Shown: in pieces, positions 50,124 through 62,712 of the stretch
How positions within the stretch are numbered: position 1 is the stretch's first letter
Layout: each line of letters starts with the position of its first letter
Assembly: GCA_012270975.1 (NCBI GenBank)
Contig: JAAXHH010000141.1
Span: forward strand, 531,089 to 595,088
Reading direction: 5' to 3'
DNA from: Candidatus Latescibacterota bacterium
GTDB lineage: Bacteria > JAAXHH01
Length of the DNA stretch: 64,000 nt
The notes under the pieces: model-generated
The model's input: the letters and a program-made list of their open reading frames with translations, nothing else
Told to the model about the DNA's origin: nothing
Databases searched by the model: none
Made by a program: the position numbers and the translations under genes

Positions 50124-50777
50124 ATGTTAAGATTCGCGGAAGAGATCATGCTGCTCATGCTCGAGGACGACGGGAAGTTCGTAAACGTGCCCGACCGTCT
50201 GTTAAGGTATGGTCTTGCCGGCGGCGTACTGATGGACCTGGCGCTTGAAAACCGCATCGACACCGATGTCGACAAGCTGGTACTCGTGGACTCGACCCCC
50301 GTGGATGACAACCTCCTCGACCCGTTGCTCGCGGATATCTCGGCGTCATCAGAAACCCATGGCGCGCGGTACTGGATCGAACACGCCGTCGACCTTGCCG
50401 ACGATATCCGGGAAACGGCCATCGACAGGCTCGTGGAACGGGGCATCCTGAGCCGGGAAGAAGGCCAGTTCCTCTGGGTGTTCCGGTCGCGGCGCTATCC
50501 GACCATCGACGGAACGGCCGAGCGCGAAGTCAAGCTCCGAATCATGGAAGTGTTGTTCAGCGAGAAAATCCCCAGTCCCCGCGACGTCGTGATCATCAAC
50601 CTCGCCCACGCGTGCAACCTCTTCAAGGAGATCCTTTCCGCGCGGGAACTCGCACAGGCCTCCGAACGCATCGACCAGGTGCGCAAGCTGGACCTCATTG
50701 GCCAGGCCATGTCGAGGGCGATATCGGATATCGAACTGTCGCTTTCCCTCGCCGTGGAACGCGGCTACTACATATAA
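50124..50777 (+). CDS. GPP34/GOLPH3-like protein
   Basis: The 217-residue protein matches the GPP34 family, known from eukaryotic GOLPH3/Vps74, which binds phosphatidylinositol 4-phosphate and sorts Golgi glycosyltransferases. LRFAEEIMLLMLEDDGKFVN at the start, then LRYGLAGGVLMDLALENRID, and the DLADDIRETAIDRLVERGILSREEGQFLWVFRSRRYPTIDGTAE segment match the all-helical family fold. Bacterial relatives are known but have no defined role. It sits alone between the receptor gene and the sulfatase island. A possible hairpin, ATAGCG/CGCTAT (50014-50028), lies upstream of it. Confidence 0.82.
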   Translation: MLRFAEEIMLLMLEDDGKFVNVPDRLLRYGLAGGVLMDLALENRIDTDVDKLVLVDSTPVDDNLLDPLLADISASSETHGARYWIEHAVDLADDIRETAIDRLVERGILSREEGQFLWVFRSRRYPTIDGTAEREVKLRIMEVLFSEKIPSPRDVVIINLAHACNLFKEILSARELAQASERIDQVRKLDLIGQAMSRAISDIELSLSLAVERGYYI

Positions 50778-50899: not shown

Positions 50900-52246
50900 C
50901 TACCTCCCGTGGCACCGCTTGAACTTCAGACCGCTTCCGCACGGACACGGATCGTTTCGGCCCACCGTTCGGAACTCACGCTGCCTGGTGAGTTCGGCCT
51001 CGCGCTGGCGGATAAAGGACATCACGTTGGCGGGGGCCCGCCGGTGACTCAGTTCATTGGCCATGAACCGCATGGGGCCGTCGATGTGATGGAAGAAGGC
51101 CTTGTACCCCTCGCACAGGTAGTTCAAACCCGGCTCGCCGTCAGGCGTCGTAATGATGCGGTTCTTCGGACATCCCCCGTTGCAGATGAACCGCACGTCG
51201 CATGACAGGCAGTACTGCGGCAGCGTGTCCAGCTTGGCCTGCCCGAAGGCCCGCTGCTGCTCGGACTGGACCATCTCCATCATGGGTATCTCGGTGATAT
51301 TGCCCAGCAGGTAATCCGGCTCCACGTAGTGGTCGCAGGCGTATAGATCCCCGTTGTGCTCCAGGGCGAGGGCGTCGCCGCAGGTCTCCATGAAAATGCA
51401 GAGTCCCGGGCTCTGGCCGGACCAGGCGGCGAGCGAAACGTCGAAGATCTGCACGTACATTTTCCCCACGTCCCGCCGCACCCATTCGTCGAAAATCCGG
51501 ATCAGGAACCGGCCGTACTGCTTTCCCGTCACCGAACGGTCCGTTACGTCGTTACCTTCCTGGTACCCGGTGTCGTTGTCCCGTTCCACGATGGGGATGA
51601 ACTGCAGAAACCGCGTCTTCACCACGTCCCGCATGAAGCGGTAGACTTCCAGGGGGTGCTCCGCGTTCGCAGCGTGCACCGTGGTCAGGATATTGAACTC
51701 GACCTCGCTTGCCTGCATCATCTCCGCCGCGCCCATCACCGTGTCGAAGGTGGGCTTGCCGCCCTTGTCGACCCGGTAGGCGTCGTGCAGCGCCCTGGGT
51801 CCATCCAGGCTCAGGCCGATCAGGAAGTCGTTTTCATGGAAGAAACGGCACCAGTCGGCATCGAGAAGCGTGCCGTTGGTCTGCAGGGAATTGAAGATAC
51901 GCGTGTCGGGTTTCTGGTACTTCTTCTGGAACTCGACGGCCTTCTGGAAGAAATCGAGGCCCATAAGGGTGGGCTCTCCGCCTTGCCAGGCGAAGGTGAC
52001 CTCGGGGACGTGCTGGGCTTCGATGTACTGCCTAGTGTATTCTTCGAGCAGGTCGTCGGGCATGCGGAACCCGCTGCCGGGATACAGATCCTCCTTGGCG
52101 AGGAAGTAGCAGTACTTGCAGTCGAGATTGCAGATGGCCCCCCGGGGTTTCATCATCACGTGAAACGCCGGGATCGGGACCGGATCTCCTCCGGCGGACG
52201 GCATGGCCGATGCCGGGACTGCGGTGGTTGCGTCGACTGGATTCAC
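50900..52246 (-). CDS. Radical SAM sulfatase-maturating enzyme (anSME-like)
   Basis: anSME oxidises the active-site Cys or Ser of sulfatases to formylglycine. The radical SAM motif CxxxCxxC is at Cys39, Cys43 and Cys46. A long SPASM domain follows, with CIFMETCGDALALEHNGDLYACDHYVEP and YCLSCDVRFICNGGCPKNR, which bind two auxiliary clusters. The C terminus ends in a zinc-binding SEC-C motif (DPCPCGSGLKFKRCHG). The start is a GTG at 52246; ATG at 52204 is an alternative. The gene is last in a row containing three sulfatases, a strong context for this role. Confidence 0.93.
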   Translation of the reverse strand: MNPVDATTAVPASAMPSAGGDPVPIPAFHVMMKPRGAICNLDCKYCYFLAKEDLYPGSGFRMPDDLLEEYTRQYIEAQHVPEVTFAWQGGEPTLMGLDFFQKAVEFQKKYQKPDTRIFNSLQTNGTLLDADWCRFFHENDFLIGLSLDGPRALHDAYRVDKGGKPTFDTVMGAAEMMQASEVEFNILTTVHAANAEHPLEVYRFMRDVVKTRFLQFIPIVERDNDTGYQEGNDVTDRSVTGKQYGRFLIRIFDEWVRRDVGKMYVQIFDVSLAAWSGQSPGLCIFMETCGDALALEHNGDLYACDHYVEPDYLLGNITEIPMMEMVQSEQQRAFGQAKLDTLPQYCLSCDVRFICNGGCPKNRIITTPDGEPGLNYLCEGYKAFFHHIDGPMRFMANELSHRRAPANVMSFIRQREAELTRQREFRTVGRNDPCPCGSGLKFKRCHGR

Positions 52247-52300
52247 GTTCGTCTCAGGCTGTGCGCGCCTTCAAGCGCGGACCGTAAGGAATGGCGGAAC

Positions 52301-53827
52301 TTATCGCCGGCCGCGCCGGATCCAGGGATCCAGCACGTCGCGCGGATGACCGGGAAACCCCCGCACCCCGCGCGACCGGTCGAACTGGTAGATGCGCGAG
52401 GCCTTCCACTTCGTGTAGGGAAAGGACCGCAGGTTGTCGCCATCCAGGGCGTCGGAAGCGCCCGGATGCCCGCAAGCCTGCACGCCGCGCTGATACAGAT
52501 CGTCGGCGACATCCCGGTCGGACGCGACCCGGTTCGCCACTTCGGCCGGGTCTTCGGCCGTGTTGAACAGTTGCTCCCTGCCGCCGTTCGCAAGGTAAAT
52601 ATACTTCCAATCGCCGCTTCGGACCATGATTTTGAACCGGTCCGTCCCCGGTTCGCCGTAGTACCCGAAGAGGGTTTCCCTTGGCACGGCGGTTCCGTCT
52701 ATCACGCCGAGCACGTCCACTCCGTCGCGCACCTGGGTCTGGCCGGCGGCGGCAGTGGCGATGGCGAAGAGATCGGTCAGGCAGACGAGGTCGTGTCTTA
52801 AAACGTCCCGCGGCAGACGGTCGGGCCAGCTTACCAGGAAGGGCACGCGCGCCGAGACGTCGAAGAAACTCTCCTTCTGCCACGCGGTATGATCCCCGAG
52901 GTGGTCACCGTGGTCCGAGAAGAAGCAGATGAGCGTGTTGCCGGCATCCTCTCGGGCCTCGACGGCGTCAAGAAGCCGGCCCAGGCAATCGTCGATGTAA
53001 GTGATCTCTCCGTAATAACGGGCCTTGAGGACCCGGGTCGACGCATCGTTGATTTCGTCCGCCCAGATGATCCGGTTCATGAAGGGTATCTGCTCGTCCA
53101 GGTGGTCCACCGAAAGATCGCCGCGGACCGGGCCCGGCATACGGTCGGGGTCGTAGATCCGGTTGAAGGGCACGGGCGGCGCGAAGGGCGGATGGGGCCC
53201 GATGAAGGACACGAAACCGAAAAAGGGCCGGTCATCGGATGCGCGCAGCGCTTCGATCGCGCGGTCCGCGGCCCAGGACTCCACGGTCAGGTGGGCGGGC
53301 AACGGGCTCGCCTGGGGCATGTAGTACATTTCAGTCCGCTCTCCCATGAGCGCCTCGATGTAGTCGAAATCCGGATGCTCCCGGGCGATCCAGCCCGCGT
53401 AGGCTTCTTCGCGCCGCTGCTCCGGACTGCCGTAGAGTTCCTCGCTGTGGAGCTGGGATTCATAGCCCACGTCCTCGTTCCACGGGAAGGTGTGGAACTT
53501 CCCCACGCCGAATGTACGGTAACCCGATGCCGACAGGGTACGGGCGAGATAGTCCCCGCACCGGCCTTCGAGCGTATCGGCCTGGCCTGGAACGGGCTCG
53601 GACCGGCCGTTACTGAAAATACGGGTCGTGGGCGGGTCGCACCCCGTACGGATGGTCGACCGCGCCGCCACGCAGACGGGACAGGTCGAGTAGCCCTGGG
53701 TAAACGACACGCCCCGGCGCACGAGGCGGTCCATGTTGGGGGTGTAAATATAATCGTTGCCCAGCGCGGCGATGGTATCGAAGCGCTGCTGGTCCGTCAT
53801 GATGAAGAGGATGTTGGGACGGGTCAT
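52301..53827 (-). CDS. Sulfatase (type I, Cys)
   Basis: A 508-residue sulfatase of the alkaline phosphatase superfamily. RPNILFIMTDQQRFDTIA holds the first metal-binding Asp. CPVCVAARSTIRTG contains Cys52-x-Ala-x-Arg56, the site turned into formylglycine. SDHGDHLGDHTAWQKESFFD is the second metal region. The ATG at 53827 was chosen because homology starts there; the frame runs upstream. No signal peptide is visible, so it may act in the cytoplasm or leave by another route. The maturase gene follows 54 bp downstream. The substrate is unknown. Confidence 0.93.
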   Translation of the reverse strand: MTRPNILFIMTDQQRFDTIAALGNDYIYTPNMDRLVRRGVSFTQGYSTCPVCVAARSTIRTGCDPPTTRIFSNGRSEPVPGQADTLEGRCGDYLARTLSASGYRTFGVGKFHTFPWNEDVGYESQLHSEELYGSPEQRREEAYAGWIAREHPDFDYIEALMGERTEMYYMPQASPLPAHLTVESWAADRAIEALRASDDRPFFGFVSFIGPHPPFAPPVPFNRIYDPDRMPGPVRGDLSVDHLDEQIPFMNRIIWADEINDASTRVLKARYYGEITYIDDCLGRLLDAVEAREDAGNTLICFFSDHGDHLGDHTAWQKESFFDVSARVPFLVSWPDRLPRDVLRHDLVCLTDLFAIATAAAGQTQVRDGVDVLGVIDGTAVPRETLFGYYGEPGTDRFKIMVRSGDWKYIYLANGGREQLFNTAEDPAEVANRVASDRDVADDLYQRGVQACGHPGASDALDGDNLRSFPYTKWKASRIYQFDRSRGVRGFPGHPRDVLDPWIRRGRR

Positions 53828-53894
53828 CGAGTTTCCTCTACCGGGCCTGCCGTCGGGGACGGCCGATCGTGTATAATGGGTGTGATCAAGATGC

Positions 53895-55295
53895 TCAGAC
53901 GGTCTGCCGCCAGATACGCCCAACCGCGTCCAGCTTGTCGTCGCTCAAGTACCCGTACCGGTTGATCCATACGCCGTCGGCCGGACTTTCCGCCACGATC
54001 CGGAAACGCCGGGCGAAATCGTGCAGGGGACCGTAGCCGTGCATGAGCGGCGTGACGAGCGCGTTTCCGTTTACCTCCGCGCAGACCTGCTCGATCCGCC
54101 GCCGCTGCGCGTCATCGGGGACCGAATGGGGTTCGTCGGGACCGGGATATCCGTATTCATCGATCCGGGTGGCCGTGATTTCGTCTCCGAGGTCGAAGAG
54201 ATGGGCGAGCGACCGCACCAGGATTCTTTCGTCCAGACCGGGATTATGTTCCAGCAGCACCCGACCCCAGAATTCCACCATGACCGACCAGTGCATGGTA
54301 TACAGCTTGGGGGAAACCGCGTCGCAAATCTCTGCCGCCCCGCGGAAATCGAAGCCGGTCCACAGGGTGAGAGGGGACATGAAGGCGTTGGCCGACAGCT
54401 CCTTTTCGGGGCCGCCGTGTGTCGTGATCACGGACCTCCAGTGCCTGAGCAGGTCGTTGGACAGGGCCGATTTCAGGCGCAGCCATTCCACCATGCCGGG
54501 AAAGGACCGGAAGATGGCAGCCAGCGTCGCCGCGCCCCGGCCCGGCCCGCTGAAGTCGAGCAGGTCCCGGTTTTCGAGCCGTCCGTGCACGTAGTCGTAG
54601 GCCGCACGCACGTCCCGGTGGATGGCCTCGTAGTCGAACTGATTGGCCGAGGCCCAGCGCGCCACCTGGGGATTGAAATCCTGGAAGGCCTCGTCCAGCT
54701 TGTAACAAGGGTACTCGGGCCAGTCCGGCCGAAAGCCGGTGACACGGGGATACTGTTCGAGCAAATCCCGCACGTAGGCGGCGATGTAAGCCCGTATCGC
54801 CTCGCTGGCGAGGCAGCCCGTGTCGGCCATGCGATCAGGCAGCTCCCCGTCCGGCCTCCTCGGCCGGTCATCGTCCAACAGTCGCGGCGGCGTCGCGCCG
54901 CTCAACTGCAGATAGACCTCGAGTCCGCGTTCCAGCGCGGCGTCGATGAACCGTTCGATCAGGTCGCCGTGGGCGTCCGTCAATTCGTTAGGTTCACGGG
55001 GCTTGTACGGGGTGTCGGCATAATAGGAGAGGCGGGGTCGGTAGCTCGGGGCGCTCCGCACCCAGAGCGAACGACGGCCCCACAGGGGTCGATCGAAGAG
55101 GCGAGGACTGCTTCCGGCGTCGCTGGGCGGCTGGAAGGAACCGACTCCTTCCTCGGACGGCGCGGTCACCGTGGGATTCACCGCCACGGCCGTGGCGCCA
55201 GCCCGGTCCACCAGGTTGTCCAGCACGGCTTCCACCCCTTCGTTCAGGATGAAATCCGCCAGGACGGTGATGCCCAGTATTCGATTCTCGCTCAT
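53895..55295 (-). CDS. Unknown protein, possible TIM-barrel glycoside hydrolase-like fold
   Basis: The 466-residue protein is not firmly recognised. Its layout resembles an alpha/beta barrel of the hydrolase type: ITVLADFILNEGVEAVLDNLVDRAGATAVAVNP at the start, LIERFIDAALERGLEVYLQLSGATPPRLL, FRPDWPEYPCYKLDEAFQDFNPQVARWA, then SPKLYTMHWSVMVEFWGRVLLEHNPG. No signal peptide is present. It lies between two sulfatases in the same direction, so a role in breaking down the same substrate, for example cleaving or binding a sugar moiety, is plausible. No catalytic residue can be assigned with confidence. Confidence 0.6.
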   Translation of the reverse strand: MSENRILGITVLADFILNEGVEAVLDNLVDRAGATAVAVNPTVTAPSEEGVGSFQPPSDAGSSPRLFDRPLWGRRSLWVRSAPSYRPRLSYYADTPYKPREPNELTDAHGDLIERFIDAALERGLEVYLQLSGATPPRLLDDDRPRRPDGELPDRMADTGCLASEAIRAYIAAYVRDLLEQYPRVTGFRPDWPEYPCYKLDEAFQDFNPQVARWASANQFDYEAIHRDVRAAYDYVHGRLENRDLLDFSGPGRGAATLAAIFRSFPGMVEWLRLKSALSNDLLRHWRSVITTHGGPEKELSANAFMSPLTLWTGFDFRGAAEICDAVSPKLYTMHWSVMVEFWGRVLLEHNPGLDERILVRSLAHLFDLGDEITATRIDEYGYPGPDEPHSVPDDAQRRRIEQVCAEVNGNALVTPLMHGYGPLHDFARRFRIVAESPADGVWINRYGYLSDDKLDAVGRIWRQTV

Positions 55296-55311
55296 ATTGC
55301 ACCGGTGGGGC

Positions 55312-55359
55312 GGCGGACGCCATTTAGTCGGCGGACGCCATTCAGTCGGCGGACGCCAT
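55312..55359. repeat. 18-bp tandem repeat copying the 3' end of a sulfatase gene
   Basis: Two full 18-bp units start at 55312 and 55330 and a third partial one at 55348. On the minus strand each reads ATGGCGTCCGCCGACTRA, that is the end of the sulfatase (MASAD and stop) repeated beyond the real stop, first with TGA, then TAA. It fills the gap before the next gene. Confidence 0.9.
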
Positions 55360-56691
55360 GGCCGCGAGCTGCGCCTCGATGAACCGGTCCGCGCGGTCGT
55401 CCTCCGCCTCGGGATCGCAGATCGCCCGGAGTTCCTTTTCCAGGTCGGAGGCTACCGCGGGGTGCACCTCACAGACGTTGTTCAGTTCATCGGGGTCCCG
55501 GTCCAGGTCGAACAACTGGTGGGGCGCTGCGACGTGATGAAGGTATTTCCATTTGCCTTTGCGGATCATGAAGGCGCTGTGCCGGGCCCCGTGGCCATGG
55601 TATTCCGAGAACACCACCCGCCGGTCGTCGTTTTCCGGCACAAGCTGCAGGGGACGGCCAACCCAGTCTGCCGGCCGTTCGGCGCCCGTCGACGCGAAGA
55701 GACCCGCCTGGACGTCGTGGAGGTCCACCGGCGTCGAAATCCGCCACCCGGACGGGAAATCGGGGCCTGCCGCGATGCAGGGGATGCGGCTCGCGTCTTC
55801 GTAGAGGGAGCATTTCCACCACATGCCGAACTTCCCGAGCATCTCCCCGTGGTCCGACGTGTAGATGACATTGGTCTCGTCGTGCAGCCCCGCTGCTTTC
55901 AGCGTTTCGACCAGGCGCGCCAGTTGCCGGTCCACAAAGGTCACGCAGGCCAGGTACCCGCGGCGCTGGCCCCGTACCTGGTCCCCGGTAAACAGGTCCG
56001 TCTGGAAATGTTCGCGCACTTCGCGGGCCCGGGGATGGTTCGCCGTCTCCTCGTCGACCCCATATTCCGGCAGATCGCCGCCCCGGGGATAGAGATCCCA
56101 CAGCTCCTGGGACGTATAGTGAGGGAAATGGGGATGGATGATGTTCACCGTGAGCGTCCACGGTCGCCCCAGTGAAGGCGCGGTATGTGTCAGCCAGTCC
56201 ACGGCTGCGTCGACACGTTCCAGGTCGAGCCTGAGATGCGATTCCTTTACCCCGAACTGCGAGGCCCGTTCCGCGGCGGCCCGCCGGATCCGGAACGGCC
56301 GTCGTCCGATTTCCGGGTCGCCGGCGCCTCGATCCCTGCCGCCGAGGCGCGCTTCGCTAAAACCCAACTCACTGCTCGGTGCGAAGACGTGCGTTTTGCC
56401 CACGTGTACGGAATACACGCCCTGTTCAGACAAGGAGCCCCCATAGGTGGGTATGTCCGGGTCGACTCCGATGGTGCAGTTGGAATAGGCCTGGATCTCG
56501 TGCACCCTGCGCCCCGTCATGAAGGCGGACCGGCTGGGCGTGCACAGGGGCGACGGGCAGTAGGCGCTCTCGTAGACGACCCCGTTCTCCGCCAACCGGT
56601 CCATGGCCGGCGTCCGGACGAAGGGATGACCGTAGACGGAGGAATAGAAGGGGTTGTGCTCGTCGGAGATGAGCAGGAGGACATTGGCCAT
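55342..56691 (-). CDS. Sulfatase (type I, Cys)
   Basis: A 449-residue sulfatase. NVLLLISDEHNPFYSSVYG holds the first metal-binding Asp. SPLCTPSRSAFMTG carries the formylglycine motif Cys50-Thr-Pro52-Ser-Arg54. YTSDHGEMLGKFGMWWK is the second metal site. A GAGG site lies before the ATG at 56691, 9 bp after the dioxygenase stop. It lacks a signal peptide. Its last codons and stop are duplicated in tandem downstream. It shares the family plan with the other two sulfatases but differs clearly in sequence, so the three probably act on different positions of one substrate. Confidence 0.93.
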   Translation of the reverse strand: MANVLLLISDEHNPFYSSVYGHPFVRTPAMDRLAENGVVYESAYCPSPLCTPSRSAFMTGRRVHEIQAYSNCTIGVDPDIPTYGGSLSEQGVYSVHVGKTHVFAPSSELGFSEARLGGRDRGAGDPEIGRRPFRIRRAAAERASQFGVKESHLRLDLERVDAAVDWLTHTAPSLGRPWTLTVNIIHPHFPHYTSQELWDLYPRGGDLPEYGVDEETANHPRAREVREHFQTDLFTGDQVRGQRRGYLACVTFVDRQLARLVETLKAAGLHDETNVIYTSDHGEMLGKFGMWWKCSLYEDASRIPCIAAGPDFPSGWRISTPVDLHDVQAGLFASTGAERPADWVGRPLQLVPENDDRRVVFSEYHGHGARHSAFMIRKGKWKYLHHVAAPHQLFDLDRDPDELNNVCEVHPAVASDLEKELRAICDPEAEDDRADRFIEAQLAAMASAD

Positions 56692-56700
56692 GCAGGGACC

Positions 56701-57525
56701 TCATTTCCCTTCAAGAAAGGTCTTAAGCGGCACGTCCTCTTCCTCCGGCAGGTAGTAGCTCAGCGCGTCGCCCACTTCGCCGATCAGTTGCTTCTGCAGG
56801 GGCGTACACCGGTCCACGAGAGACTTCGGCATCTGGATATAGTCCATGGGCTTCACCCACCGGTACGCATATCCCATGAAAATGGTCCTGCGGTCTTGGC
56901 CGGACCAGTTGTGGCCGATACTGTGGAAGGTGCGCTGCTCGAACAGGAAGGCGCTACCGGCGGGCAAGTTCATCTGGATGGCGCCGTAGGGCCATCCCGT
57001 GGCCGGGTCCCTGGGCGGCTCCCCCGTAATCCGGTTGCTGCCGGGCACCAGCGAAGTGGCCCCCGAGGAAGGATCTGTCTGGTCGCTGAGCACGTAAGCG
57101 ATCTTCAACAGGATGCGGGGATGGGGTTCCTGCATTTCGACGAAGGAACGGCCGCCGTCACGGTGCATGCCGTGTCCACGCCTGGTCTCCTCGGTGGGTT
57201 TCGGCCCCGAGGGCAGCACGATGAGGTGGGAGGTGATCATCTGGATGTTCCAGCTGAGCGCACCCCAGGCCAGGGGAATGGTCGCCGGCCAGTCGAGCAG
57301 CTGCAAAAAGGCGTCGTGGGCGACGATGCAGTTCCGCATGTTCAGATCGCCGCCTTTCCCCAGCGTTCCCTCCTTCCGGGCCCGGTCGAACACTTCGTCG
57401 ATGGCCTCGTTCAACTCCCCGACGACCGCCGGAGGCAGCGCGTCTTCGATAATCAGGTAGCCGTACTGGTCGAGATGTTCCCGCTGTTCGTCGTTCATCT
57501 CGGTGTATTGGTGTCCGTTTTCCAT
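56701..57525 (-). CDS. Phytanoyl-CoA dioxygenase (PhyH) family protein
   Basis: A second Fe(II)/2-oxoglutarate oxygenase, 274 residues. The HxD iron motif is His121-Arg-Asp123 (GHGMHRDGGR); the distal His lies in FHSIGHNWSG at about residues 201-205, followed by Arg212/213 for 2-oxoglutarate. The ATG at 57525 was chosen since the family core begins at EHLDQYGYLIIEDAL. It sits between a binding protein and a sulfatase in one run of genes, which suggests it hydroxylates the desulfated product or the sulfated substrate. The substrate is unknown. Confidence 0.9.
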   Translation of the reverse strand: MENGHQYTEMNDEQREHLDQYGYLIIEDALPPAVVGELNEAIDEVFDRARKEGTLGKGGDLNMRNCIVAHDAFLQLLDWPATIPLAWGALSWNIQMITSHLIVLPSGPKPTEETRRGHGMHRDGGRSFVEMQEPHPRILLKIAYVLSDQTDPSSGATSLVPGSNRITGEPPRDPATGWPYGAIQMNLPAGSAFLFEQRTFHSIGHNWSGQDRRTIFMGYAYRWVKPMDYIQMPKSLVDRCTPLQKQLIGEVGDALSYYLPEEEDVPLKTFLEGK

Positions 57526-57572
57526 GTCAGTAATCGATCCTTCAGTCAAAGCGTGTATAACGCCCGGACGCT

Positions 57573-59369
57573 TCAATAGTCTATGCGCCGGTCGCTTTCC
57601 ACGGCCTCTTCGCCGATGTAGAGGTCGAAGTATGAATTCGCGTTCCGGTAATTGGGAAAGTTTCCCCACCGGTCTTCCCTGAATCCCTTCAGCCAAGGCT
57701 TGCGCAACTGGTAGGTCTTGACATGCCAGAGGAAAACGGCGCCGGCTTCCGAGGCGAGTATCCCCTCGGCCTCGTCGTACATCGCCATGCGCGCCTCGTG
57801 GTTCAGTTCCCCGGCAGCCGTGTCGATCAGCCGGTCGAACTCCGGGTTCAGCCAGTCGTGACGCGTGTACCCCCTGGGCTGGGACCGCCAGATGATGCCC
57901 AACATGCTGTGGGGATCGGGAAAGTCGTAGTTGAACCCGATGATGCTCATGGGAAACTCCCAGTTGTACATGGCCGACCGGTACGCCGCGCCTTCCGTGT
58001 TCTGAATGCCGATCTGGACATTCAGGTTCTCCTTAAGCATCTCCTGGATCGCCTGGGCCGCCTGGCTGATGGCGGAAGCTGGCGTGGCGTCGGCGAGCCA
58101 GAGATCCATCCGCGGGAAACCCCTGCCGTCCGGATAGCCGGCCTCGGCGAGCAGTTGCCGGGCGAGGTCCACGTCGAACCGCTGGTGGTCCCTGTACTTG
58201 TCTCCCACGTAGCCGGGGAAATGGAGCGGCAGCATGGTATAGGCGGGAATCATCATATCCTGGAGAATCGTCTCGTTGAGAGATACCTGGTCGATGGCGT
58301 GGGCGAAGGCCTGGCGGACCTTGAGATTGTCGAAGGGGGGCTGGCGCGTCCGGAAGAACAGGTAGATCGTCGTGAACTGGTCGTAGGACCACGCCCGTTC
58401 GTTCCACTCCGGGTCGTCACGCAGGCCGCCGTAGACCATGGGGCTGACGTCGATCACGTCGATCTCGTCGTTTTCGTAGGGCAGCAGTCCCATGTCGTTC
58501 GCCGCGCTCACCGAGCCGACCATGGCGTTGAATATGCGGACGATCTGGCGGAGATGCCCTGGATTGGACCCGGTGTAATAGGGATTCAGGCCGAAAGTCA
58601 TGTACTGGCCTGTTTTCCACGTCTCGAGCTGGAAGGGTCCGTTGGTCAGGCAGGTGCCGGCAAGCGCCCACTGGTCCCCGTATTTCTCCACCTGCCAGGG
58701 CGGGACGGGCGCGGAAGTAAGGTAGGCGGTGATATGGGGCAGGAAGGCGCAGGACTGCTCCGTCTCGATGACCAGGGTGTAGTCGTCCAAGGCCCGGACG
58801 CCCACGGTATCGACGTCGTCCGTTTCCCGCTGATTGTATGCCCGGGCGCCTTTGATGTCGTAATAGAGAAAGGCGTAGACGTTGCCCGCGTTGGGATGGA
58901 GAAACCGCTTGAAGGTGAATTCGAAATCGTGGGCCGTCACAGGTCGGCCGTCGCTCCACCGCCCGTCCCGGCGCAGGTGAAAGGTCCATTTCTTCCCGTT
59001 TTCCGAAGGCTCCCAGGACTCCGCCGCGCCGGGGATGAGTTCCCCGTTCAATCCGAACATGACGAGCCGTTCGAAGTGGAACTCGCTTCCGCCCGCCACG
59101 TAGATCGAGACGCCCTGATCCATGCTCTTGGGTTCCGCGGCCATGTAACGGAACACCTGGTACTCGAGGGGCGCGGCATCATCAGGCAGGCGCTCCATCA
59201 ATGCGGTGTGGGCCGCCTCCTTCATCTCCGCGGTTTGACCGAAGAACAGTTCGGGCGCGCTCTCGTCAGGATCGTCCGACACCGGTTGACCACCGCAGTT
59301 CACGAGCGACAGCGAAAAGGCCAGAAGGAACGGGGCCGCAAAAGGGAGCAAGGTTCGTGTCATCTTCAT
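57573..59369 (-). CDS. ABC transporter substrate-binding lipoprotein, family 5 (peptide/opine type)
   Basis: A 598-residue SBP_bac_5 protein of the OppA type. The N-terminal signal peptide ends in a lipobox-like SLVNCGG; Asn before the Cys is atypical, so lipid attachment is likely but not certain. Family segments are AESWEPSENGKKWTFHLRRDGRWSDGRPVTAHDFEFTFKRFLHP and the LTNGPFQLETWKTGQYMTFGLNPYYTG region. It lies 13 bp after a sulfatase gene. No permease or ATPase gene is found anywhere in the window, so it is an orphan whose transporter must be elsewhere. It may bring in the substrate of the sulfatases. Confidence 0.9.
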   Translation of the reverse strand: MKMTRTLLPFAAPFLLAFSLSLVNCGGQPVSDDPDESAPELFFGQTAEMKEAAHTALMERLPDDAAPLEYQVFRYMAAEPKSMDQGVSIYVAGGSEFHFERLVMFGLNGELIPGAAESWEPSENGKKWTFHLRRDGRWSDGRPVTAHDFEFTFKRFLHPNAGNVYAFLYYDIKGARAYNQRETDDVDTVGVRALDDYTLVIETEQSCAFLPHITAYLTSAPVPPWQVEKYGDQWALAGTCLTNGPFQLETWKTGQYMTFGLNPYYTGSNPGHLRQIVRIFNAMVGSVSAANDMGLLPYENDEIDVIDVSPMVYGGLRDDPEWNERAWSYDQFTTIYLFFRTRQPPFDNLKVRQAFAHAIDQVSLNETILQDMMIPAYTMLPLHFPGYVGDKYRDHQRFDVDLARQLLAEAGYPDGRGFPRMDLWLADATPASAISQAAQAIQEMLKENLNVQIGIQNTEGAAYRSAMYNWEFPMSIIGFNYDFPDPHSMLGIIWRSQPRGYTRHDWLNPEFDRLIDTAAGELNHEARMAMYDEAEGILASEAGAVFLWHVKTYQLRKPWLKGFREDRWGNFPNYRNANSYFDLYIGEEAVESDRRIDY

Positions 59370-59382
59370 GATTTTTGCCCTG

Positions 59383-60864
59383 TTATGGGCCGGGTAAATC
59401 GATGCCCAGGCGGGTGAACTGTTCCGGCATAGCCTCGCAGGATTTCAAATGGCATGCGATTCGTTTGGTGAAGCGGGCTTCCAGCGCCGGATCTTCTATG
59501 GGGTTCTGCTGCGCCGGATCTTCCACCACGTCGAACAGCTGGTTCCGGCCCGCGTAGGATGCTTCGTCCGGATGATGCCGGGGTACCTTACCCTCCGTGG
59601 GAATCTTGTACAACGGAAGGTTGTAGGTGTGTCCGAAATAGCGGCCTGTTTCCACCCGGCCGTACACTTCTCTCGGATACCAGCGGTTCAACCCGCCCGT
59701 GGGCATGGCCGTATACGCGTAGAGGGGACCGGCATCCTCGTTCACCGGGTTCCGCATGTATACGTACCTTCCGTCCGTGACGTTCATCGCCATGCCGAAG
59801 TAACCGAAGATGCAGTCCTCCCGGGCAGCCGAACCGTCCATCAAGTCCTTCAGGGAAAGACCCTGGACGTGGGGCGGCCGCTCCACGTCGAAGTAGTCCA
59901 GGAAAGTCGGCATCAAGTCGATGGTCTGCGTTAGGGCGTCGGTGCGGGTACCGGCTCTTTCGTTACCCGGAAAACTGGCGATCAGAGGGATCCGGACGAT
60001 TTCGTTGTATAGCGGCATGATATTCTTCATCCAGTAATCATGCTCCGCCAGCATCGTCCCGTGATCCGTGGTGAATACGACCAGTGTATCGTCCCACAGA
60101 CCCAGGTCGTCCAGGGTATCGAAGATCCGGCCGACCCAGTGGTCCGTCATCGTGAGCAGACCCGCGTAGCACTTCCGGATGTGGTCGACGGCTTCCGGGG
60201 ATTCATGGACCTCGTCGTAGCTGGGCCAGTCATAGAACGGTCCGTCGTAATCATCGCCATACATTGCCCGGTATTTCTCGGTGCAATAGAAAGGCTCGTG
60301 GGGATCGAAGATCTCGACCTGCAGGAACCAGTCGTCGGATGCCTGGTTCGTCTTCAGCCACTCGATAGCCGCCTGTGCGGTCTTCGGGCCGGAGAAGTCC
60401 TCCTCTCGCTGCTGCAGTTTCCGGTTGCCGAAGTTCTGCTGGCTGAGCTGTCCCAGGTGTTCCGGCAAGGCCATGCGGTCCACGTGGGACGCCCACCAGT
60501 CGTTCTCCTGGCCCCGGAAGAAGTCCCACGTATTGAACGCGGTGTGATAGTTCTCGCCCCCGAGTTCGAAGTAGTGGTAGTGATCGGTCAGGAGGTGGGT
60601 GAAGACGTCATGCTTCCGCAACTCGCCCGGCAGCGTATCGTCGTAGGGTTCGATGGGCCCCCAGCCCCGGTAGATGAAGTTGTACCGGCCCGTCATGAAC
60701 TCCCGCCGTGCGGGCATGCAGGGCAGCGAACCGACCCAGTGGTTGTCGAAAACGACGCCGCGTTCGGCCAGGCGGTCCAGGGCGGGCGTCTGGACCCAGC
60801 CGTTGCCGTAGGCGGGCAGATAGTCCCGGCGGACCGTGTCCAGTACGATGAAGACGCACTTCAT
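59383..60864 (-). CDS. Sulfatase (type I, Cys)
   Basis: A 493-residue sulfatase. KCVFIVLDTVRRDYLPAYG holds the first metal-binding Asp. SLPCMPARREFMTGR contains Cys49-x-Pro51-x-Arg53. FTTDHGTMLAEHDYWMKN is the second metal site. The ATG at 60864 follows directly on the TAA stop of the RraA gene (TAAATG), so the two are translationally coupled. No signal peptide is visible. The start VLDTVRRDY is seen in sulfatases related to choline sulfatase or phosphonate monoester hydrolase types, but no substrate can be assigned. Confidence 0.93.
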   Translation of the reverse strand: MKCVFIVLDTVRRDYLPAYGNGWVQTPALDRLAERGVVFDNHWVGSLPCMPARREFMTGRYNFIYRGWGPIEPYDDTLPGELRKHDVFTHLLTDHYHYFELGGENYHTAFNTWDFFRGQENDWWASHVDRMALPEHLGQLSQQNFGNRKLQQREEDFSGPKTAQAAIEWLKTNQASDDWFLQVEIFDPHEPFYCTEKYRAMYGDDYDGPFYDWPSYDEVHESPEAVDHIRKCYAGLLTMTDHWVGRIFDTLDDLGLWDDTLVVFTTDHGTMLAEHDYWMKNIMPLYNEIVRIPLIASFPGNERAGTRTDALTQTIDLMPTFLDYFDVERPPHVQGLSLKDLMDGSAAREDCIFGYFGMAMNVTDGRYVYMRNPVNEDAGPLYAYTAMPTGGLNRWYPREVYGRVETGRYFGHTYNLPLYKIPTEGKVPRHHPDEASYAGRNQLFDVVEDPAQQNPIEDPALEARFTKRIACHLKSCEAMPEQFTRLGIDLPGP

Positions 60865-61599
60865 TTAAGACTCATCTTTCTTGCCGTAGCTGTGCCCGCC
60901 CAGGATCGCCTTGATATCTTCGGCCGATCGCGCGCGTTCGAAGGCGCCGATCCGTTCTTCTTCCTCCTCCGCCAGGGCCGTGGCATTCTCGAGGACCGCG
61001 TCCATCCTGTTGGCCGGAAACTTGCACGCGCCGTTCTCGTCCATGTGAATGATCTCGCCCGGAGCCACGTCCATCCCGCCCACGGACACGGGCACGTTCA
61101 CCGCATGCACGGCCTGATCACCATGGCCTGGCGTGACGCCGCTGAGCAGGTACTGAACCTTCATGGGGCGGATTTCGTGTATATCCCGGGAGGGGCCGTT
61201 GGACACCACGCCGACGCATCCCACGGCCTTGACGGAAGCCGTCATGTTCCCACCGGCCAGACCCACTTTACCGGCGATTTCGGGCGGAAACTTCTGCTGG
61301 ATGATGAGTATCGTCGGTCTGGGTGATTCGTCCAGCGCGTCGATGATATCGAGGAAGGAAAGGTTCTTGAAGCCCGGTTCGGGCAGACCGAAGACACAGG
61401 TGACGGCGTAGCCGACGGTTCGTCCCAGTTCTGGATAGATGCACTTGATGGACTGGTCGGTGTACCAGTTCTCCGACCAGGGGTTGTACAGACCGAGGCA
61501 GAGGGGATGGGTGGGATAGGTCGCCACCACGTTGGTGATCGTCGGGGTATCGAATTGTTTCAGCGCTTCCAACGTCTCCTGCGGGGACCGCGCGGCCAT
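60865..61599 (-). CDS. RraA-like / HMG-type aldolase family protein
   Basis: Proteins of this family include the RNase E inhibitor RraA and 4-hydroxy-4-methyl-2-oxoglutarate aldolases. The 244-residue chain carries the family core GGNMTASVKAVGCVGVVSNGPSRDIHEIR, with Arg138 and Asp139 matching the aldolase-type R-D pair, and the GDIVHGD-like GEIIHMDENGACKFP near residue 195. In bacterial sulfatase and sugar clusters such genes usually encode catabolic lyases, which fits better here than regulation of RNA decay. It is the first gene after a strong promoter. Confidence 0.87.
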   Translation of the reverse strand: MAARSPQETLEALKQFDTPTITNVVATYPTHPLCLGLYNPWSENWYTDQSIKCIYPELGRTVGYAVTCVFGLPEPGFKNLSFLDIIDALDESPRPTILIIQQKFPPEIAGKVGLAGGNMTASVKAVGCVGVVSNGPSRDIHEIRPMKVQYLLSGVTPGHGDQAVHAVNVPVSVGGMDVAPGEIIHMDENGACKFPANRMDAVLENATALAEEEEERIGAFERARSAEDIKAILGGHSYGKKDES

Positions 61600-61655
61600 G
61601 CATTGCTCCTTCCGGGATGCGGACGGGAAAGGGTCTGGAAATCAAACTGTTAAAC

Positions 61656-61683
61656 GGTCAGTCAAATCGGCCAGTCAATTCGG
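61656..61683. repeat. Direct repeat in the leader of the RraA-sulfatase operon
   Basis: Two near-identical 13-14-bp units, GTCAGTCAAATCG and GCCAGTCAATTCG, lie side by side between the promoter and the start codon. Position just downstream of the predicted start site suits a repressor site; no protein is known to bind it. Confidence 0.4.
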
Positions 61684-61699
61684 TGGATTGAACCCGGAG

Positions 61700-61728
61700 A
61701 ATATGTTTCTGATTCGACGGGGTGTCAA
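61700..61728 (-). promoter_or_regulatory. Sigma70 promoter of the RraA-sulfatase-PhyH operon
   Basis: -35 TTGACA (61723-61728), 17-bp spacer, -10 CATATT (61700-61705) on the minus strand. Predicted start near 61693, about 95 nt before the first gene. All genes down to the maturase at 50900 are on this strand with gaps of 0-73 bp. Confidence 0.7.
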
Positions 61729-61838: not shown

Positions 61839-62372
61839 TCAGCCGGAGGAACCGGACTGGAGCGAACGCTGCCAGAGAGCCGTGGAATAGAACTCGTAAG
61901 ACGCGGCCTTGTCGGGCACATCGACGAGGTGCACAGTGAACCGGCACGGCACGCCGTTGTCCGGCAGATAGTCCCGAAAGAAGCTGCTATAGGCCCGTGC
62001 ATAGGCTTCCTTCAGCCGGTCCTGTTCGGCGGCGTATCCCACCGGATCCACGAGGGGGTTCGGCGCTTTCGGCTGGCAGCCGAAAGCGTGCACCTCGATG
62101 AAATCGATCTCCTTGAGCGATTTGCAGAGCCCGGCGTCAATCAGCCACTTCTCCCAGCTTTGAAAGACGAGCGGTATCTCCTGGTCCGGTTCCATCGATA
62201 TCAGGTCGTCCCGCTCCAGTACGCCCTTGGCGGAATAGCCGCCCGTGAGACCGGCGAAATAGATCTTCAGGTCGCCGTCCGGCTGCTCCTCGGTCACCAG
62301 GGCCGACAGCACCGGGCTGTCCCCGTGGTAATAGTAGGTCAACTTGCCGCGCTTTTTGATGTTGAAAGCCAT
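61839..62372 (-). CDS. Unknown conserved-looking protein (177 aa)
   Basis: This 177-residue protein is not recognised. It starts MAFNIKKRGKLTYYYHGDSPVLSALVTEEQPDGDLKIYFAGLTGG and looks like a globular mixed alpha/beta protein. It has a pattern DFIEVHAFGCQPKAPNPLVDP in the middle, then a helical, tyrosine-rich segment. No signal peptide, membrane helix or metal motif is seen. It lies 239 bp before the RraA gene with a promoter in between, so it is probably a separate unit upstream of the sulfatase operon. It may be real because codon use resembles its neighbours. Confidence 0.6.
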   Translation of the reverse strand: MAFNIKKRGKLTYYYHGDSPVLSALVTEEQPDGDLKIYFAGLTGGYSAKGVLERDDLISMEPDQEIPLVFQSWEKWLIDAGLCKSLKEIDFIEVHAFGCQPKAPNPLVDPVGYAAEQDRLKEAYARAYSSFFRDYLPDNGVPCRFTVHLVDVPDKAASYEFYSTALWQRSLQSGSSG

Positions 62373-62712
62373 TGAATCTCCTCGTGAAAGTTATAGTTCT
62401 TCGTACGTTTCGTGCTTAATTCATCCGCTATTGGAGAAGGTATCTTTGCAAGGGTAATTTACTGCGCGTGTCAAGGTCAAGCATGGTACTTCCAACGATA
62501 CCGCACAGCTTGCACTTTCCCTCATTCACCGAGGCCATAATGGTCTTTGGTCTATACGGTTTCGCCATGTATATTCCATTCCCTCGTGGTCGCCGGACTA
62601 TCCGGGACTTCCGGGAGTCCAGTGCAGTGCGATCGTGGGTCCGGAATCATCTCGATGCCTTGTCGGCATCGTGCCTCCAGCGAAAGCGCGTCGATTCGAA
62701 GCCGAACTCATC
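62373..62712. other. Gap before the SelD fusion gene
   Basis: No gene is supported in these 340 bp. CGATGCC/GGCATCG (62653-62671, loop of 5) can form a hairpin about 40 bp before the fusion gene. On the minus strand a double -35-like TTGACCTTGACA lies near 62469-62487, but no good -10 follows. No tRNA fold was found. Confidence 0.4.

Follow-up and report, generated by a model that had tools for sequence, protein, structure and literature searches.

An eight-gene island from a Latescibacterota genome combining three sulfatases, a sulfatase maturase and a glycoside-hydrolase-like barrel protein

What kind of compound is handled by a gene island that joins three sulfatases and a sulfatase maturase to a binding lipoprotein, a dioxygenase, an RraA-like protein and a barrel protein, and do these genes act together? 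The island occupies positions 50900-61728 of the window, i.e., the 64,000-nucleotide stretch of Candidatus Latescibacterota DNA that was analysed, and all of its genes lie on the minus strand. The initial annotation was right about strand, order and coordinates but counted nine genes; there are eight, the number that it named itself. In the order of transcription, the features are:

61700..61728, minus strand: promoter-like site, TTGACA-17 bp-CATATT, 10 of 12 consensus positions
60865..61599, minus strand: RraA-like protein, 244 aa (PF03737, 71.9 bits, cut-off 24.5)
59383..60864, minus strand: sulfatase S1, 493 aa, CMPAR (PF00884, 143 bits, from residue 4)
57573..59369, minus strand: family-5 (OppA-like) solute-binding lipoprotein (SBP), 598 aa (PF00496, 254.5 bits)
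56701..57525, minus strand: PhyH-type Fe(II)/2-oxoglutarate dioxygenase, 274 aa (PF05721, 61 bits, cut-off 22; likely start Met at 57525)
55342..56691, minus strand: sulfatase S2, 449 aa, CTPSR, choline-sulfatase-like (PF00884, 113 bits, from residue 3)
53895..55295, minus strand: barrel protein, 466 aa, glycoside-hydrolase-like TIM barrel by predicted structure
52301..53827, minus strand: sulfatase S3, 508 aa, CVAAR (PF00884, 143 bits; likely start MTRPN at 53827)
50900..52246, minus strand: radical SAM/SPASM anaerobic sulfatase maturase (anSME), 448 aa, with a C-terminal SEC-C motif (TIGR03942, PF02810)

Gene order and promoter within the genus

The intergenic gaps from the RraA-like gene to the maturase gene measure 0, 13, 47, 9, 46, 67 and 54 bp, in agreement with the range of 0-70 bp first given for most of them. 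Profile search found neither a permease nor a regulator among the eight genes, as had also been noted. The promoter scan found two sites where shuffled sequence gives 2.8, so that the scan alone constitutes no evidence and the comparison of genomes was relied on instead. Both hexamers and the spacer length of 17 bp are the same in all nine upstream regions from the genus, within a short conserved block beyond which the DNA diverges. The promoter initially proposed ahead of the genes, there called strong, fares no better than shuffled sequence in the scan, but is supported as a site by the hexamers and spacing shared among these nine regions.

Gene order is intact in nine of the 12 genus genomes (including G004, in which S3 reads as two ORFs), and the three others are cut by contig ends in a compatible way; the suggestion that relatives might never share this neighbourhood, which would have made the island a chance cluster, was checked and does not hold. 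A plasmid search gave no match. Gene counts are based on an HMM scan of stop-to-stop frames; longest-frame gene calling suffers here and there from spurious frames on the opposite strand, the DNA being GC-rich. On sequence grounds, the conservation of gene order exceeds chance and the eight-gene island is an operon, i.e., one transcription unit, a view already taken in the initial annotation and supported by the short gaps, the conserved promoter-like site and the fixed order.

Sulfatases, maturase and binding lipoprotein

All three sulfatases exceed the PF00884 cut-off and carry the C-x-P/A-x-R signature of S1-type formylglycine sulfatases, which is kept in their orthologues wherever that stretch is present (the S1 orthologue in genome G013 stands at 82%, and S3 has 78% identity to its G013 counterpart). 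They are therefore three plausible formylglycine sulfatases, in keeping with the proposal that they could remove sulfate. Since their sulfatase domains begin at residues 3-4, there is no room for a leader peptide. They sit in different parts of the sulfatase tree: S1 groups with paralogues from its own genome, and S2 falls in a supported clade (99/93) with sulfatases that adjoin a barrel gene at three loci (L041, L042, and L052). The nearest PDB chains of S1 are multifunctional and phosphonate monoester hydrolases. By sequence, the solved structures most similar to S2 and S3 are those of choline sulfatases such as BetC; however, all three proteins miss the cut-off of 433 bits of the choline sulfatase model TIGR03417 (S1 122, S2 253.7, and S3 186), and no bet genes occur among the eight. 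On contig C140, the only one covered by a test of the distance from sulfatase to PhyH genes (16 of the 30 sulfatases; 42 PhyH genes), 10 of 16 sulfatases lie within 3.5 kb of a PhyH gene versus 4.0 expected, and with the island left out 7 of 13 versus 3.2.

The maturase scores 493.9 against the TIGR03942 cut-off of 349.45 and is thereby a member of the anSME family; its SPASM domain reaches 38 bits (cut-off 21.5), and both the radical SAM motif CNLDCKYC and the SEC-C tail (PF02810) are retained in 11 of 11 aligned copies. Each of the 12 genus genomes contains exactly one anSME above the cut-off, the copy of the island, and 10 of the 12 genomes searched gave no FGE-family protein. Among the sulfatases of the host genome, 25 of 29 have the Cys-type signature and none the Ser-type one (four gave neither). 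As the sole anSME above the cut-off, the enzyme probably serves the about 30 sulfatases of the cell and not the island alone, which revises the initial description of a maturase belonging to the island. The island resembles Klebsiella atsA-atsB, a sulfatase-maturase pair, in that a radical SAM/SPASM anSME is encoded with its sulfatase substrates; it differs in its three sulfatases, in holding the one recognised maturase of the genome, and in the additional binding protein, barrel protein, PhyH and RraA-like protein.

The binding lipoprotein, in which a lipobox-like LVNC can be recognised by eye, has oligopeptide-binding proteins as its nearest PDB chains. Family-5 importers are expected to have the binding protein encoded with a permease, an arrangement absent from the island: the nearest BPD_transp_1 match on the contig is 283 kb away. 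The protein is thus an orphan, as first described, but hardly a peculiar one, since for 19 of the 24 family-5 SBPs of the genome no permease match lies within 6 kb; orphan family-5 binding proteins are the rule in this genome.

The barrel family and the accessory enzymes

The barrel family is the newest part of the operon and has no description in Pfam or NCBIfam: the window protein matches no Pfam family at E <= 1 and no NCBIfam family, while a Pfam scan of 48 members returned nine scattered non-GH families, each in one or two members. Neither did a search of PDB sequences find a relative (best profile match E 0.91). The structure prediction is confident (pLDDT 93.9), and the model resembles the TIM barrels of known glycoside hydrolases: Foldseek gave 41 matches at E <= 0.001, of which 39 belong to glycoside hydrolases or their kin (e.g., Cwp19 and chitinase-like proteins), with PgaB as the closest structure. 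The barrel-like protein of the initial annotation can accordingly be specified as glycoside-hydrolase-like. Invariant residues accumulate at the C-terminal ends of the predicted strands (21 of 50, versus 6.8 expected; four at N-terminal ends). Among them, Asp191 and Glu194, located where strand 187-191 ends and unchanged in all 48 rows of the family alignment, provide carboxylates where glycoside hydrolases would be expected to have them, and we infer from the model that they may be catalytic. With the C-terminal glycoside hydrolase domain of PgaB (GH153) and with Cwp19, the barrel shares 10-14% identity and no profile-level sequence link (hhalign against one PgaB sequence gave 19.5% probability over 86 columns, a value too low to rely on); moreover, by eye, it is devoid of a leader and differs in its conserved motifs, DWPEYPCY being invariant in the barrel family.

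The family is found under several phylum labels. In Chloroflexota, four loci have the barrel gene within ~10 kb of genes for GH95, an aldo/keto reductase and a galactonate-dehydratase-like protein, neighbours that point to sugar catabolism; SDR, class III aminotransferase and GFO/IDH neighbours gave no substrate.

By its sequence, the PhyH protein belongs to the Fe(II)/2-oxoglutarate dioxygenases (PF05721 with the HxD motif), and the iron-ligand motif HRD (HGMHRDGG or HGMHRDGGT-type) is present in 11 of 11 aligned rows. Its nearest PDB entry is the dioxygenase TlxI, a terpenoid enzyme. The RraA-like protein shares PF03737 membership and the RD motif with RraA and the HMG/CHA aldolases (e.g., LigK), in which the aldolase motif is D-X20-R-D. 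Unlike these aldolases, it contains GPSRD but has Gly in place of the first Asp; it stays below the cut-offs of all nine NCBIfam models listed, scoring 47.5 and 46 bits on two CHA aldolase models with cut-offs of 179 and 304.5. These results do not support an assignment as HMG/CHA aldolase, nor the aldolase-type cut that had been envisaged.

Proposed function and alternatives

The operon may serve to break down, inside the cell, a sulfated glycoside or a small sulfated saccharide that has been imported, a reading to which we assign a probability of about one half; capture of a sulfated organic compound, as initially suggested, would be its first step. The lipoprotein would pass the compound on to a permease whose gene lies elsewhere, presumably a shared one, since a permease match occurs within 6 kb of only five of the 24 SBPs. 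The anSME would convert the active-site Cys of S1-S3 into formylglycine, and in the cytosol the sulfatases would strip the compound of sulfate; of the three, S2 would have been associated with the barrel for longest. Cleavage of the glycosidic bond by the barrel would follow, and PhyH and the RraA-like protein would process the remainder. As the anSME is the only one recognised, inducing the operon probably determines, in addition, how many of the other ~27 sulfatases can become active. A bolder version is put forward tentatively and with some doubt: the barrel would found a new family of leaderless, cytosolic glycoside hydrolases that is linked to formylglycine sulfatases and acts on a sulfated glycoside, and the operon would be a genome-wide gate, its promoter controlling the only maturase and hence all ~30 sulfatases. 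The open-access literature searched yielded no paper on a cytoplasmic sulfatase with a glycoside hydrolase, GH153 with a sulfatase, a sulfatase with phytanoyl-CoA and RraA, phytanoyl-CoA dioxygenase with a sulfatase in sponge symbionts, the SEC-C motif with a sulfatase-maturating enzyme, or an orphan substrate-binding protein with an ABC transporter and permease.

The choline sulfatase relatives of S2 and S3, the proximity of PhyH to TlxI and the absence of any GH sequence signature in the barrel would also suit an operon that degrades a small sulfate ester other than a glycosidic one (aryl, sterol, terpenoid or choline-like), with the barrel as a non-hydrolytic TIM-barrel enzyme, e.g., a lyase or isomerase. 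We regard this as unlikely, given the Foldseek matches of the barrel, the choline sulfatase cut-off missed by S1-S3 and the sugar genes beside the barrel in Chloroflexota. Sulfur scavenging, in which sulfate is the point and the carbon skeleton goes unused, is quite improbable: three sulfatases from different parts of the tree fit a broad substrate range, and a maturase in the operon would couple all sulfatases to the need for sulfur, but the barrel, dioxygenase and RraA-like protein, superfluous for sulfate release, are kept in all nine intact copies, and no sulfate-assimilation gene is found among the eight. It is very unlikely that S1-S3 have phosphate or phosphonate esters as their substrates, as the PDB neighbours of S1 and a HAD hydrolase (phosphonatase-like by eye) near the G013 copy might suggest, since choline sulfatases are the nearest PDB relatives of S2 and S3, all three proteins fall well short of the PehA cut-off of 900, and the HAD gene is on the opposite strand. 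There is equally little to be said for two unrelated neighbouring units, RraA-S1-SBP and S2-barrel-S3-anSME. In G013 these are on different contigs, and there the SBP gene is followed by an amidohydrolase gene; in G011, one of the contig-cut genomes, genes of an RND efflux set separate SBP from PhyH. Against this reading, gaps in the window are 0-67 bp and one promoter-like site is conserved in the genus; moreover, each of the two G013 modules stops close to the end of a contig, so that they may still be neighbours.

In the favoured reading of sulfated glycoside breakdown, the operon offers a concrete, testable unit with which to study the use of sulfated organic matter by uncultured Latescibacterota-like bacteria. 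Genomes of PAUC34f and Latescibacteria-like bacteria, by record labels of the same broad lineage as the host, contain expanded sulfatases, many annotated as arylsulfatase or choline-sulfatase (PMC5596340, PMC7081726); the available parts of these reports give gene numbers without an operon or maturase, both of which the island provides. Its enzymes lend themselves to co-expression with the maturase of the operon, and the barrel family is, from its model, a candidate new glycoside hydrolase. The location of the single recognised maturase in one catabolic operon raises the question of whether one promoter might switch the whole desulfation capacity of the cell.

Composition and conservation of the operon

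The minus strand of the window encodes, at positions 50900-61599, eight head-to-tail genes, which constitute an operon. Taking the probable start codons of PhyH and S3, the intergenic gaps range from 0 to 67 bp. The initial annotation described an island of nine genes; the island is present on one strand, but the count is eight, as in that annotation's own list. The contig carrying the window measures 1.05 Mb, and the genome 4.06 Mb (98% complete, 5.7% contamination).

Features of the region, with the operon's genes in order from the promoter side
61839-62372, ORF of 177 aa before the promoter, no Pfam family
minus strand, RraA-like protein
minus strand, sulfatase S1
minus strand, family-5 solute-binding lipoprotein
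minus strand, PhyH dioxygenase
minus strand, sulfatase S2
53895-55295, minus strand, protein of 466 aa, predicted glycoside-hydrolase-like TIM barrel (barrel protein)
minus strand, sulfatase S3
50900-52246, minus strand, anaerobic sulfatase maturase (anSME)
50124-50777, convergent ORF after the maturase gene

The complete gene order is kept in 9 of the 12 genomes of the genus (the window and loci L019-L023 and L025-L027); contig ends restrict the remaining three. Fragments in G005 and G009 are consistent with this order. G011 retains the binding protein and PhyH-S2-barrel-S3-anSME, with an RND efflux set (OEP-HlyD-AcrB; L024 1290-7991) inserted between the binding protein and PhyH in the direction of the operon. 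All 11 other genomes encode the barrel protein at 86-93% identity, the G005 copy being a piece cut by a contig end. In G004, among the nine with the order kept, S3 is split into two ORFs (L027 11452-12992) by a frameshift or an assembly error. Members of the cluster of the 177-aa ORF precede the operon at four loci of the genus (L035, L037, L039, and L079).

Upstream of the RraA-like gene, a promoter-like site, TTGACA-17 bp-CATATT, is present in nine of nine genomes with identical hexamers and spacer length, the letters of the spacer being variable. It sits within a conserved block of ~50-60 bp, beyond which the intergenic DNA varies in length and sequence.

In G013, from another genus of the same family, the genes are divided. 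RraA-S1-binding protein (identity 76% for RraA and 82% for S1) lie on one contig, followed by an amidohydrolase and flanked on the opposite side by a gene similar by eye to the window's neighbour at 62635; S2-barrel-S3 are found on a different contig, where the maturase gene follows after a further ~6 kb. Given this arrangement and the G011 insertion, the operon looks like two modules, with the junction between the binding protein and PhyH as a place of change. In a genome of a third genus (G012), a creatininase-family gene adjoins an RraA orthologue (69%); the best S1 match there has only 34% identity, and the barrel protein is missing.

The maturase, location, and uptake

Exactly one protein per genome scores above the TIGR03942 cut-off in all 12 genomes of the genus: the operon's own anSME in ten, and one adjoining S3 in two fragmented genomes. 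Five genomes have extra matches below the cut-off (at most 156 bits vs 349). Proteins of the FGE family (PF03781), which also contains non-maturases, are absent from 10 of the 12 genomes and found in G010 and G011. The window genome encodes ~30 sulfatases (33 domain matches, some being pieces of one gene); 25 of the 29 examined carry a Cys-type signature (22 CxPxR, 2 CxAxR, and 1 CxGxR), none a Ser-type one, and four no signature by the pattern used. The motifs are intact in the operon's sulfatases. Together, these observations suggest that, within the limits of the models and of incomplete genomes, the cell has no maturase other than that of the island. A C-terminal SEC-C motif is retained in 11 of 11 maturase copies examined. 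Because the SEC-C tails of SecA touch SecB and the ribosome, the motif might, speculatively, play a role in meeting unfolded sulfatases.

The sulfatase domain starts at residue 3 or 4 in S1, S2, and S3, leaving no room for an export signal and pointing to action in the cytosol. By a crude hydropathy test, made without a signal-peptide predictor, 2 of 26 other sulfatases of the genome exceed a 12-residue mean of 1.6 in the 40 residues preceding the domain. The binding protein has, by eye, a lipoprotein-like leader. Only 5 of the genome's 24 family-5 binding proteins have a BPD_transp_1 match within 6 kb, from which it is natural to infer that many binding proteins share a small number of permeases; six of the other 19 lie on contigs lacking any such match. 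RraA-like matches number seven, and PhyH (PF05721) matches a striking 114 across all contigs (4.06 Mb), with only 1 of 14 control genomes having any. On contig C140, a PhyH gene lies within 3.5 kb of 10 of 16 sulfatases, vs 4.0 expected.

The barrel protein and its probable pairing with S2

No Pfam or NCBIfam family matched the barrel protein. A scan of genome contigs yielded 59 loci, of which 52 belong to genomes other than those of the home genus; the labels of these records are Latescibacterota, Gemmatimonadetes, Planctomycetota, Chloroflexi, Actinomycetota, Spirochaetaceae, Kiritimatiellia, Lentisphaera marina, and Oceaniovalibus (mostly MAGs, whose labels may be wrong). Of these 52 loci, several closely related and some on short contigs, 15 (including G013) have a sulfatase and nine a PhyH gene within 5 kb; for sulfatases, ~8% would be expected at the density of the window genome itself.

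In a tree of 54 sulfatases, including 26 own-genome paralogues, S2 forms a clade (99/93) with sulfatases located 0.8-1.5 kb from the barrel gene in L041, L042, and L052; none of the 26 paralogues falls within it. One of them does join the next larger clade (100/98), together with sulfatases encoded 3-9 kb from the barrel gene in L091, L041, and L052. As S1 and S3 show no comparable tie in this tree, S2 and the barrel protein seem to be long-standing partners, with S1, S3, and the other genes probably joining them later.

Neighbours in other lineages speak for sugar or sugar-acid catabolism. In Chloroflexota (L071, L072, L076, and L081), the ~10 kb after the barrel gene encode an aminotransferase-like protein, GH95, an aldo/keto reductase, and two galactonate-dehydratase-type dehydratases (Pfam checked on the L071 GH95 and reductase only); the sole dehydratase scored, from L081, reaches 276, below the cut-off of 311. 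In L053, the barrel gene is followed by three such dehydratases, two above cut-off, and preceded by genes for an aldehyde dehydrogenase and for an RraA protein that exceeds its own cut-off. In L088, L090, and L091, a TctC-type binding protein (Pfam-checked in L091) adjoins it, with sulfatases near. Planctomycete loci with recG beside the barrel gene are uninformative in this respect. Directly upstream of the barrel gene, L071, L076, and L081 have a HisD-like dehydrogenase and an SDR gene; the L081 dehydrogenase scores above cut-off as histidinol dehydrogenase, and its gene setting suggests another role.

Published context and proposed course

Large sulfatase sets of this lineage are already published: a PAUC34f/Latescibacteria-like bin is reported to carry 102 sulfatase genes (PMC5596340), and sulfatases to be relatively enriched in PAUC34f and Poribacteria vs Latescibacteria (PMC7081726). 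A term search of the main text of PMC8546597 returned no 'sulfatase', and the open-access literature searched yielded no description of the operon or the barrel family. Judged by names alone, some of the genus records (SB0665, IRC1, and APA bins) look like sponge samples.

The aldolase-type cut proposed initially finds no support in the model scores or motif of the RraA-like protein. In the likeliest course, whose substrate, step order, and activities are deduced from the genes, the lipoprotein would capture a compound for import via a shared permease; the maturase would form formylglycine, enabling S2, and S1 and S3, to remove sulfate groups, the predicted barrel would cleave the product, and PhyH and the RraA-like protein would carry out further steps.
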